From positions 558,001 through 622,000 of the forward strand of contig NZ_JABEKX010000002.1 of assembly GCF_013407595.1 (NCBI RefSeq): a stretch of 64,000 nt of DNA. Reading direction: 5' to 3'. Below are positions 1-18,525 of the stretch, one piece after another; within the stretch, counting starts at the first letter, position 1; the number at the start of each line of letters is the position of its first letter. Source of the DNA: Lacticaseibacillus absianus (GTDB lineage: Bacteria > Bacillota > Bacilli > Lactobacillales > Lactobacillaceae). The notes below the pieces were generated by a model. That model was not told where the DNA came from and did not search any database. It saw only the letters and a program-made list of their open reading frames with translations. Made by a program: the position numbers and the translations under genes.

Positions 1-467
1 AGCGGCGAGCCGGCACGGAGAACGTCGTCGGGATCGCCGGGTTCGCCGCGGCGGTGAAGCTGATCACCCCGCAGACGAAGGCCGATCGGCAGGCCAAATA
101 CCTCGGCTTCAAGCACCAGATCATCGATAACTTGCGCGCCGCAGGGATCACGTTTGACGTGAATGGCGCGGTCCAAGCCGATGCGTTGAACCATGTGTTT
201 AACCTCTGGTTCCCAGGCGTGTCGACTTACGCGCTCCAGACGAACCTCGACTTGGCCGGGTTTGCGGTCTCGGGCGGGTCTGCCTGCACCGCGGGCAGCT
301 TGGAGCCGTCGCACGTGCTGACAGCGATGTACGGGGCCGACAGTCCCCGGATCGCGGAGTCGATCCGGATCAGCTTCGGCAAGGACACCACGGCGCTGGA
401 CGTGACGCAGTTCACCACGGCCTTGATCAAGATCGTCACGCGTCTGCGCGCCAAGTCCGCGCGCTAA
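1..467 (+). CDS. Cysteine desulfurase, C-terminal part (cut by window edge)
   Basis: The window opens inside this gene. The frame starts at base 3 and ends at TAA 465-467, so about 154 residues are visible. The product is a PLP-dependent cysteine desulfurase of the NifS/IscS family, which takes sulfur from cysteine as an enzyme-bound persulfide. The R-A-G-T-E-N-V block near the left edge and the S-G-G-S-A-C-T-A-G loop (persulfide Cys codon 285-287) are diagnostic. DUF1831 and mnmA follow closely, which suggests this enzyme supplies sulfur for tRNA 2-thiouridine. That partnership is inferred from context. The PLP lysine lies off the window. Confidence 0.93.
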   Translation, partial: RRAGTENVVGIAGFAAAVKLITPQTKADRQAKYLGFKHQIIDNLRAAGITFDVNGAVQADALNHVFNLWFPGVSTYALQTNLDLAGFAVSGGSACTAGSLEPSHVLTAMYGADSPRIAESIRISFGKDTTALDVTQFTTALIKIVTRLRAKSAR

Positions 468-15273: not shown

Positions 15274-15828
15274 TCAGTCGATCAAGATCCCTTGAGGATC
15301 CATGTGGAACGGTTGCTGCTTGTCGATGTGATCATAAAACAGGATCCCGTTGAGGTGGTCGATCTCGTGTTGGCACACGATCGCCGGGTAGTTCTTGAGC
15401 CGGACCTTCTTGGTCTCGCCGTCGAGGTTCTGGTAGCGGATCGTGATCCGGTCATGGCGGACGACGTAGCCGGGCACGTCCTTGTCCACGCTCAGGCACC
15501 CTTCGCCCTCAGACAGCGCGGCCTCTTGGACACTGTGGCTGATGATCTTCGGGTTGATGAGCACTTCCTTGAACAGAATGGCGTCATCGGGACCCGGGAC
15601 CAAGACGGCGGCCATTGCCTCGCCGACGCCCACTTGAGGGGCGGCTAGTCCGACACCGGGGCGCAGCTTGTACTTCTCGTTGGCGTCCTCGTCTTGGCTG
15701 ATCACGAGGTACTCCATCATGTCGTGGGCGAGTTGCCGGTCTGCATCGGATAACGGGAACTCGACTGGCTGCGCGACCTGGCGCAGAACGGGCTCGCCGT
15801 CGCGGGTAATGTCTTTCATTAAATACAC
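15274..15828 (-). CDS. def: Peptide deformylase
   Basis: A 184-residue metalloenzyme that removes the formyl group from nascent N-terminal methionine. The three motifs are present: G-V-G-L-A-A-P-Q (58-65), E-G-C-L-S and Q-H-E-I-D-H-L-N-G, giving one Cys and two His metal ligands and the catalytic Glu. GTG 15828 is preferred because GGAGGT lies eight bases before it; ATG 15819 is an alternative. The insertion between the start and motif 1 is that of type 2 deformylases of Gram-positives. It diverges from the M-box transcript. Confidence 0.95.
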
Positions 15829-15910
15829 GTGCGTGACCTCCATATCATGGTTTCTAATCCACTTTACCACACCTCGGCGGAACAAAAAAGTCAATCTGCA
15901 AGCTCTCACC

Positions 15911-15939
15911 TTGACAGCAGGAGATAGATTGCGTATGAT
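15911..15939 (+). promoter_or_regulatory. Promoter of the M-box transcript
   Basis: TTGACA (15911-15916), 17 bases, TATGAT (15934-15939). This is one of the best promoters in the window, about 20 bases before the riboswitch. Confidence 0.85.
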
Positions 15940-16123: not shown

Positions 16124-16156
16124 TCGCGCGCATACCCGATTGGTGCGCGCTTTTTT
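16124..16156 (+). terminator. Riboswitch-controlled terminator
   Basis: GCGCGC (16126-16131) pairs with GCGCGC (16145-16150), followed by six T. It is immediately downstream of the M-box and upstream of all coding sequence, the usual place for the expression platform. Confidence 0.85.
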
Positions 16157-16192
16157 ACGCGCAACGGCGAGTGAAGGAAGGGTGGTGAGTGC

Positions 16193-16279
16193 ATGAAACA
16201 AACAGCGATCGATGGTGGTAGTCCGGATAACGCAGATCCCGGAAGGTTTGAGCATGTGCCACCACTTAATCTAAATTAA
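16193..16279 (+). CDS. 28-residue small ORF (possible leader peptide)
   Basis: ATG 16193 to TAA 16277-16279, preceded by the purine-rich AAGGAAGGGTGGTGAG. The peptide is polar with Asp, Gly and Pro, ending H-V-P-P-L-N-L-N. It lies between the riboswitch terminator and the actuator-like gene, so it is made only when the M-box permits read-through. Proline-containing leader ORFs control mgtA in enteric bacteria; equivalence here is inference. It stops 17 bases before a hairpin that overlaps the next ribosome binding site. It could also be non-functional. Confidence 0.5.
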   Translation: MKQTAIDGGSPDNADPGRFEHVPPLNLN

Positions 16280-16296
16280 ATTCGGCACGTCTCTAG

Positions 16297-16316
16297 CCTC
16301 TCTGGGAAGAGAGGAG
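16297..16316 (+). promoter_or_regulatory. Hairpin masking the ribosome binding site
   Basis: CCTCTC (16297-16302) can pair with GAGAGG (16309-16314). The right arm overlaps the AGAGGAG ribosome binding site (16310-16316) of the next gene. Opening by a ribosome on the upstream small ORF would allow translational coupling. Confidence 0.5.
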
Positions 16317-16323
16317 ACAGACG

Positions 16324-17136
16324 ATGATGCAAGTACGCAGTGGCTTGACCGGGATTCAGGTCAAGCAAAAGCAATTCACACAGCGGCACGCGGCGCGCAT
16401 CTTGGCACCAGCGTTTCAGCTACAGCCGGTCCTCCTGTTGGGCGCGGGCCTCGGGTTCTTATCCGACGCCTGGTTCAACGCTGCGTGGCTCGGCTTCGCA
16501 CTGGCGACGCTGATCTTTGGCGCGAGCATGGCGGTCCATGCCGCCTTCAAGCGCTGGCTGATGCAGTTCAACGCCCCTCAGTCGGTGCTGGTCGTTCGCG
16601 ACGGGCTACTTCGGGCGATCGACGCGCAGGCACTGGTCGCCGGCGACCTCGTTCAGGTCCGTGCTGGCCAGCTTTTGCCCGTTGATGTGCTGACGGACGC
16701 AGCGACTGTCACAACGAGTTGGTTGCGCGTGGTGCTGGCGCTGACCGGTCGGCAGGTGCCGACCGGCGTAGCGCTGGCAGGGAGCCGGGTGTTGCACGAT
16801 GCGCGCGTCGAAGTGCTCGCGATCGCAGACAACCGCTTCATCGCGACGGACGCCCAGACGCTGTTCGCCGCACCGGTGCTGACTCGCCCGACGTTGGCGG
16901 CTGGCCTGGGGATGCTCCGCGCAGCGGCGCTCACCTGGTTCAGTCAAGTGCAGACCCAGGTCCTTCGCCAGCACACCGCCCGGCCGCTGCTCGCGACCGC
17001 GCTGGTGCCAGTACGGCGCCTGATCGCCACCCCAACGACACAGGTGCGTCGTGCCCTGGTTGCTCCGATGCGACATTCGGCCAAAGAAGCCGCATTCCGT
17101 TACAACCAGGACCCCGTCTCGTGGCTCTGGGCCTAA
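16324..17136 (+). CDS. P-type-ATPase-like protein: two membrane helices plus degenerate actuator domain only
   Basis: A 270-residue protein starting at ATG 16324 (or 16327). The N-terminus resembles the start of cation P-type ATPases, then come two hydrophobic helices (about 35-50 and 56-75). Next is an actuator-like domain: V-V-R-D-G near 91, A-G-D-L-V-Q-V-R-A-G-Q-L-L-P-V-D near 106-121, and L-T-G-R-Q-V-P at about 140. The catalytic T-G-E Glu is replaced by Arg. There is no D-K-T-G phosphorylation site, nucleotide domain or further membrane helix, and no remnant downstream. The C-terminal 80 residues are basic. It cannot pump ions; a regulator, partner subunit or decayed transporter are possible. 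M-box control suggests magnesium physiology. Confidence 0.7.
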   Translation: MMQVRSGLTGIQVKQKQFTQRHAARILAPAFQLQPVLLLGAGLGFLSDAWFNAAWLGFALATLIFGASMAVHAAFKRWLMQFNAPQSVLVVRDGLLRAIDAQALVAGDLVQVRAGQLLPVDVLTDAATVTTSWLRVVLALTGRQVPTGVALAGSRVLHDARVEVLAIADNRFIATDAQTLFAAPVLTRPTLAAGLGMLRAAALTWFSQVQTQVLRQHTARPLLATALVPVRRLIATPTTQVRRALVAPMRHSAKEAAFRYNQDPVSWLWA

Positions 17137-17156
17137 TTGACAGACACTTGAGATTG

Positions 17157-17185
17157 AACGCCTCGACACGCGTCGAGGCGTTTTT
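17157..17185 (+). terminator. Terminator of the M-box operon
   Basis: Perfect AACGCCTCGAC/GTCGAGGCGTT stem with an ACGC loop and a T run. Confidence 0.93.
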
Positions 17186-17254: not shown

Positions 17255-17292
17255 GTGAATGCTTTCACAGGCTTGATTAAGGCATTTATACT
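17255..17292 (+). promoter_or_regulatory. pdh promoter overlapped by an inverted repeat
   Basis: TTCACA (17264-17269), 17 bases, TATACT (17287-17292). The dyad GTGAATGCTTTCAC (17255-17268) covers the -35 box. It resembles, but is one base short of, a CcpA cre site. The surrounding 17186-17418 is AT-richer than the genes around it. The rest of that gap shows nothing else I can name. Confidence 0.6.

Positions 17293-17355: not shown

Positions 17356-18525
<1,170 letters not shown>

Follow-up and report, generated by a model that had tools for sequence, protein, structure and literature searches.

The window, a stretch of 64,000 nucleotides of Lacticaseibacillus absianus DNA, carries a short gene for a P-type-ATPase-like protein (the fragment gene below). 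In the window the order is def, M-box, fragment gene, pdhA. The features of the locus are collected in Table 1.

Table 1. Features of the locus in window coordinates; residue numbers refer to the fragment protein.
Feature	Position	Strand	Basis or remark
def (peptide deformylase), upstream neighbour and synteny anchor	15274..15909	-	ORF; def motif also in relatives' loci
Sigma-70-like promoter of the M-box transcript, TTGACA-17-TATGAT	15911..15939	+	Consensus scan, 11/12 matches
M-box (Mg2+) riboswitch aptamer, RF00380	15959..16121	+	Rfam 123.4 bits (gathering 44), E 3.5e-27
Hairpin and T run directly 3' of the aptamer, read as M-box terminator	16128..16156	+	Place and form
Attenuator strand 1: leader ribosome-binding site and start codon	16180..16195	+	Pairs with strand 2 in the MFE fold
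Leader ORF, 28 codons, MKQTAIDGGSPDNADPGRFEHVPPLNLN	16193..16279	+	D-P leader common across genus M-box loci
Attenuator strand 2: late leader codons, CATGTGCCACCACT	16253..16266	+	Predicted to pair with strand 1 or strand 3
Attenuator strand 3: GGCACGTCTC, 3' of the leader stop	16284..16293	+	Predicted to pair with strand 2 or the main start
Predicted start hairpin (16297-16314) hiding the main Shine-Dalgarno (16310-16316); strand 4 and main start codon (16320-16326)	16297..16326	+	
Fragment-protein gene, 270 codons, ORF open	16324..17136	+	ORF reading
Parts of the fragment protein	SGLT motif, residues 6-9; hydrophobic ~26-44 (weak) and 49-76; A-domain-like 84-178; variable linker; FRYNQDPVS 258-266		
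Intrinsic terminator of the fragment gene	17156..17185	+	12-bp stem and T run, z -3.23 (stem 17156-17183); strict scan negative
Promoter-like site between fragment gene and pdhA	17264-17292		Consensus scan
pdhA (pyruvate dehydrogenase E1 alpha), downstream neighbour	17419..18525	+	ORF

The aptamer matches the full Rfam model (positions 1-169) and lies upstream of the gene on the same strand, in line with the M-box control claimed in the original prediction. The promoter-like site is found about 20 bases 5' of the aptamer. No second M-box was found in the 2.84 Mb genome, so that of the window is the only one detected. The hairpin behind the aptamer (16127-16168, -12.4 kcal/mol) folds no better than shuffled sequences (z -0.04) and is followed by TTTTTT. 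A strict terminator scan found none at this hairpin and none 3' of the fragment gene; it is by position and shape that the post-aptamer hairpin is called a terminator. The frame of the fragment gene is open throughout and encodes 270 amino acids, so the earlier reading of a complete, real gene holds. The claim that it has its own terminator is supported by folding and by the T run, but not by the strict scan. A plasmid search was without match.

The surroundings were compared in a sample of 30 Lacticaseibacillus genomes. Upstream, def is present in 24 of 27 genus loci. Downstream, pdhA is found within about 1.5 kb in 13 of the 27 (two of the other 14 are almost without downstream sequence), and it is not adjacent in the nearest relative, L011. 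The main synteny anchor is therefore def. Read-through from the fragment gene into pdhA is disfavoured because the 3' hairpin with its T run and the promoter-like site intervene, and because pdhA is so often not adjacent.

By motif and profile comparison the P-type-ATPase similarity of the fragment protein is real though weak. Pfam gave a single match, PF00122 (E1-E2 ATPase), at 25.9 bits against a cut-off of 28.1 and over residues 84-123 only; 22 of 27 family members match this model at E<=0.01. NCBIfam returned weak P-type ATPase matches only, with a TIGR01524 score of 13.8 bits for the window protein, below the cut-off of 610.75 bits. A PDB sequence search gave weak P-type ATPase matches and one weak match to an unrelated protein. 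When the family was set against a 21-row profile of full-length MgtA (hhalign), residues 87-178 were aligned at 95.8%, and three of six of the genome's own P-type ATPases of other classes, entered as single sequences, reached 94.5-94.8%. Hydropathy is in line with two membrane helices, the first weakly supported: the first segment has one 19-residue window above 1.4 (residues 26-44), and the second spans residues 49-76. For the original description of two helices followed by an actuator domain, sequence similarity speaks for an A-domain-like stretch, and hydropathy for the helices.

The DKTG phosphorylation motif and the GDGxND hinge are found in none of the 28 family proteins, in agreement with the loss of the P and N domains described earlier. 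With the required domains missing, neither phosphorylation nor a pump cycle is possible for this protein. The catalytic E of TGE(S) is, by reading, absent from the aligned place in all 27 alignment rows, and T-G is present there in 7. The sole TGE string in the family occurs in the protein of L024, in another segment (LTTGEKLPVD). The change of the catalytic T-G-E to T-G-R had been presented as a feature of the protein; it is not family-wide, and TGR is ruled out as a functional motif. In the alignment it is a local state of a drifted segment.

The fragment family is present in 28 of the 30 genus genomes, with lengths of 248-292 aa. In 27 it was found as a short ORF by protein search, and G008 was added by profile search and direct reading. 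No fragment gene was found in G015 and G026 (85% and 91% complete). An M-box was detected in 26 of the 30 genomes and lies directly upstream in 26 of the 27 first-found orthologue loci. The nearest named relative found with the gene is L. daqingensis, at 57% identity. In 12 genus pairs dN/dS ranged from 0.145 to 0.577, below 1 in every pair. Comparable values were obtained for fragments of other genera: 0.06-0.28 in g25 (4 pairs), 0.15 in g12 (1 pair) and 0.09-0.30 in g37 (7 pairs). Within the gene, regional dN/dS is lowest in the A-domain-like part (0.14-0.15 over residues 81-125 and 149-175), and residues 201-250 are near neutrality (0.58-0.64). The protein evolves much faster than def: between the window and its nearest relative dN is 0.370 for the fragment gene and 0.066 for def, at similar dS.

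Neither a broken frame nor a dN/dS near 1, the marks of a pseudogene, was found. The possibility of a lone truncated copy under relaxed selection had been raised with the original prediction. It is ruled out as the leading reading by the presence of the same short protein in 28 of 30 genomes, so that the truncation is not confined to one copy, and by the dN/dS values of all 12 pairs.

A C-terminal NQxPV[ST]-type motif is found in 26 of 28 family proteins. In the FRYNQDPVS tail most codons vary synonymously, with GTC and TCG nearly fixed. Both ends of the gene have diverged little at synonymous sites (dS 0.39 over residues 1-30 and 0.17 over residues 251-270, against 0.65-0.94 over residues 31-225). 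For these reasons part of the constraint at the ends may act on RNA or DNA. At the 3' end (17074-17133 and orthologues) nucleotide-level constraint is apparent besides the protein motif. Separately, the MFE fold of the window has a short hairpin, GCTTGACC...GGTCAAGC, in the early codons of the main gene (16343-16366); its stem letters vary among species, with pairing seemingly kept (by eye).

Between the M-box and the gene lies a probable second layer of control that was absent from the original prediction: a putative leader ORF and a predicted attenuator. Of the 26 genus M-box loci, 25 carry a leader ORF with a Shine-Dalgarno-like sequence and a D-P (Asp-Pro) stretch, and the leader of the remaining one, L032, has Asp-Ser. 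In a table of 69 leaders, drawn from 126 loci, Asp and Pro are encoded by differing synonymous codons. Positions 16283-16332 fold at -20.5 kcal/mol (z -3.45). The helix between strands 1 and 2 (1:2) is part of the MFE structure in 22 of 26 genus loci, with the full helix missing in L016, L023, L027 and L031.

Because the casei-group rows are out of register in the leader alignment, pairing was assessed with per-sequence folds and duplex energies. For 1:2, strands of the same species pair at a mean of -20.55 kcal/mol, against -17.84 kcal/mol for strands of other species; for 2:3 the means are -14.59 and -12.36 kcal/mol. In neither case was any of 5000 permutations as good, in a set of 22 distinct rows out of 25 (L034 was left out, its main Shine-Dalgarno not being matched by the pattern). 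With 13 hand-chosen rows, one per clade, the counts were 0/5000 for 1:2 and 2/5000 for 2:3, and an earlier run with 24 of 26 rows, identical rows included, gave 0/2000 for both; kinship among the sequences makes all counts of this type optimistic. The 3:4 pairing has no own-species advantage (-7.80 against -7.70, 675/2000; main start misread in two rows). The locus thus has predicted helices 1:2 and 2:3 that are mutually exclusive, with the gene start hidden in one state. Asp-Pro leaders also precede the full MgtA genes of g21 (L101, L133, L138), so the leader device is probably older than the truncation. In L101 and L138 the start of the leader is paired in the MFE fold.

Two species of the genus that have the fragment gene are without an M-box in their genomes (G021 and G008), and no match up to E 5 was found in their loci, L188 and L189. 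The leader ORF, the attenuator pairing and the fragment gene are all kept there, with pairings in G021/G008 at -26.2 and -25.8; -26.0 and -28.2 kcal/mol. A TTGACC-18-TATAAT sequence stands before the leader (by eye). The upstream neighbour is still def, and the downstream genes differ from those of the window. The protein of G021, L038, has lost the tail motif. Since leader, pairings and gene are kept where the M-box is gone, the attenuator seems valuable without the riboswitch. The two are natural lines of M-box loss that allow a comparison.

The origin of the gene was addressed through M-box loci in other genera. A search across 301 genomes gave 100 such loci outside the genus, all of which were read. 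Full-length MgtA follows the M-box in 37, a split MgtA in one (L058) and fragments in 18. In 41 loci there is a leader without an ATPase-like gene. The remainder are two loci before ABC-transporter genes and one at a contig end (L136). Some of the 37 MgtA genes were seen only in part and their frames were confirmed separately. L126 carries def, an M-box, full MgtA and pdhA, one after the other. M-boxes adjoining def also precede full MgtA in L114, L120, L133, L101 and L138 (the orientation of def is reversed in the last two), and they precede fragments in g25, g12 and g11. Since the def-linked M-box slot holds full MgtA elsewhere, the fragment occupies the slot of an M-box-controlled MgtA.

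M-box-controlled MgtA fragments are found in four other genera. Those of g12 form a bridge: the best NCBIfam model for L067 is the Mg2+ pump TIGR01524 (8.3e-15), and a match of 98.4% across 174 columns joins the g12 set to the window family. Read by eye, the g25 fragments have no pair of helices ahead of the A-domain-like part, and hydrophobic segments follow that part. The g37 fragments match MgtA over residues 1-338, and the TGE glutamate is missing in all seven that were read. No def motif was found in the fetched g37 stretches. By comparison of the sequences g37 looks like a second, independent loss. In a tree of fragments and full pumps the branches are very long and do not fix the number of truncations. 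Of the 18 fragment genomes, nine have an intact M-box-controlled MgtA, one has a split copy and eight are without MgtA above the cut-off. The split copy belongs to L058 in G089, where an M-box-controlled MgtA lies in two frames (three TAA); the same genome has an M-box-controlled fragment by def.

Descent from MgtA rests mainly on this synteny and on the intermediates, since the profile link covers the A-domain-like part only and the genome's own ATPases score nearly equally. The gene very probably encodes an MgtA-type fragment that is under selection and controlled by the M-box.

A slowly decaying pump remnant is the first alternative to be weighed. On this reading a dispensable M-box mgtA had its catalytic part deleted, and the frame is under weak constraint without a selected function. 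Such decay would be consistent with the high dN relative to def and the near-neutral linker (residues 201-250), with the loss of the gene in two of the 30 genus genomes and of both tail and M-box in the L038 lineage, and with the split MgtA (three TAA) of G089 in another genus. It is nevertheless unlikely. The frame is open in 28 of 30 species within the narrow length range given above, dN/dS is below 1 in all 12 pairs, and the tail motif is kept with synonymous variation. Decay would also not be expected to keep a translation-start attenuator with own-species pairing, or to yield fragments under M-boxes in five genera.

The Mg2+ transporters of the genus bear on what the protein may act upon. 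MgtA above the cut-off is present in 5 of the 30 genomes and not in the other 25, the window's genome included. MgtE above the cut-off was found in none of the 30, and CorA is present in all of them. The window's genome has nine other PF00122 matches. Given the counts for MgtA, MgtE and CorA, the protein would most likely act on a CorA channel or on another P-type ATPase. A general partnership with MgtA is ruled out, as so few genus genomes possess it.

A second alternative is that the fragment is a partner or inhibitor of full MgtA or of another P-type ATPase, its free A domain competing with that of the pump. The coexistence of fragment and intact M-box-controlled MgtA in 9 of 18 genomes of other genera speaks for it, as do the nine further PF00122 matches of the window's genome. 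The MgtA dimer, as described in the available part of PMC10925321, uses the N and P subdomains, which the fragment lacks; this, together with the 25 genus genomes without MgtA above the cut-off, makes such a role improbable. Of the original interpretation, the domain loss, the M-box control and the reality of the gene were upheld, and descent from an M-box Mg2+ pump is now backed by synteny and intermediates. The suggested role as a regulator, inhibitor or partner of a Mg2+ transporter stays a proposal, and a partnership with MgtA cannot be general.

Other M-box loci were seen alongside. The 41 loci in g13, g15 and g20 (for example L104:1548-2413, L117:1492-2361 and L150:1501-2368) all have a leader of the type MTTETYDPGSQSYHACQGKR. 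In the 39 that were checked, several hundred bases 3' of the leader are without a conserved further ORF; L095 and L141, outside these 39, have what we take to be a small CsbD-like ORF. A convergent transporter motif follows the M-box region in 34 of the 41. Five of these loci were searched at a permissive threshold, and nothing but the M-box and rRNAs scored at or above gathering level. On sequence grounds the 41 loci look like a riboswitch-controlled structured non-coding RNA. In the two loci with ABC-transporter genes, L157 (G045) and L094 (G110), these genes take the place of a Mg2+ transporter behind the M-box. In L157 the M-box adjoins def, and a leader-like ORF, MTDTSNPSSSSNDIPNQRK, is found.

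That the RNA is the selected product in the window as well, with the M-box and leader transcript acting as a regulatory RNA and the protein secondary, fits the 41 of 100 loci outside the genus (three genera) that have M-box and leader without an ATPase-like gene, the absence of a conserved ORF beyond the leader within about 680 bases in the 39 checked, and the low synonymous divergence at both ends of the fragment gene, but it is quite improbable, as in Lacticaseibacillus the frame stays open, constraint acts at the amino-acid level and the start site of the ORF is gated.

The preferred reading, held tentatively and with a little less than even confidence, is that the gene encodes a captured N-terminal piece of an MgtA-type pump, gated by M-box and leader, which would be induced at low Mg2+ and act as a dead-pump membrane regulator and not as a transporter. 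Its starting points are read directly from the DNA: the M-box and leader, the pairing elements, the synteny and an ORF that is open and conserved. From its ancestor the gene would have retained the place beside def together with riboswitch and leader-ORF attenuator, whereas the P and N domains, the membrane helices further along and the glutamate of the catalytic TGE would have disappeared. At low Mg2+ the M-box would let transcription past its terminator. A ribosome slowing or dropping off at the Asp-Pro stretch of the leader (codons 14-16) would leave strand 2 free to pair with strand 3, the main start site would open and the fragment protein would be made. This two-gate opening is proposed by analogy with mgtQ and MgtL. 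The protein would be held in the membrane by its two helices, and the A-domain-like part and the C-terminal tail may form a docking surface that modulates another membrane protein, most plausibly CorA or another P-type ATPase.

A wider reading is possible, and is put forward with slightly more reserve. The one M-box detected in the window's genome has a single target, this catalytically dead MgtA-type fragment. A Mg2+ riboswitch regulon may here have passed from the control of a pump to that of an inactive part of the pump. The comparable M-box fragments of four other genera differ in architecture (two helices and the A domain; the A domain without two helices before it; up to about M4). Together they might form a new class of pump-derived regulators of Mg2+ starvation, gated by the M-box and the Asp-Pro attenuator. 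The attenuator, being able to outlive the M-box, would probably be a sensor of Mg2+ or ribosome state itself. If true, a conserved pump cut-out under the pump's own ion riboswitch would represent a new route from transporter to regulator. The reading also makes testable how bacteria without MgtA or MgtE respond to low Mg2+.

Small regulatory membrane proteins of P-type ATPases are known (phospholamban, MgtS, MgtR), and they are not known to be pump-derived. The proposed likeness is that of a small membrane protein tied to the regulation of an ion pump; unlike these proteins, the fragment very probably derives from a pump. Catalytically dead relatives of enzymes with regulatory roles are known for kinases and proteases. 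Among known systems, the fragment resembles MgtA/MgtB (P3B, TIGR01524) in its N-terminal SGLT-type motif, first helices and A-domain-like part, and in the M-box control seen in related genera and the def-linked slot, with pdhA behind it in L126. It differs in its length (270 aa against about 900) and in lacking DKTG, GDGxND and the TGE glutamate. The locus shares with M-box (ykoK) riboswitch genes a full-length RF00380 aptamer upstream on the same strand; in contrast to them, the product of the window gene is no transporter, and riboswitch and gene are separated by a leader ORF that has an attenuator of its own.

The open literature, outside which most subscription papers lie, yielded in the portions available nothing on an M-box leader or mgtA in lactobacilli or on a truncated actuator-domain P-type ATPase; the papers that did come up concern other systems, to judge from their titles and the opening of their abstracts. 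In a P-type ATPase review (PMC10654040), two passages matched wording for truncated or inactive forms, and neither concerns such fragments.

The closest counterparts of the leader are enterobacterial. For Salmonella mgtQ (mgtB), PMC8092293 reports that stem-loop 2:3 is the alternative to 1:2 and 3:4 and that the open state is promoted by acidic codons. The window shares with mgtQ a short ORF overlapping predicted alternative 1:2 / 3:4 and 2:3 structures, a ribosome-binding site hidden in 3:4 and acidic residues. The window leader is longer (28 codons against 8), lies downstream of an M-box, and has its Asp-Pro stretch at codons 14-16, whereas the acidic codons of mgtQ are codons 2 and 5. The leader peptide MgtL of E. 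coli mgtA, as the accessible passages of PMC11282234 describe it, causes ribosome drop-off at EPDP at low Mg2+. Both systems have an Asp-Pro leader, putative in the window, ahead of an mgtA-type gene; MgtL acts through EPDP on Rho-dependent transcription termination, whereas the gated step in the window looks like translation initiation. The window leader would thus be a Gram-positive counterpart of the mgtQ logic of Salmonella, stacked behind an M-box.
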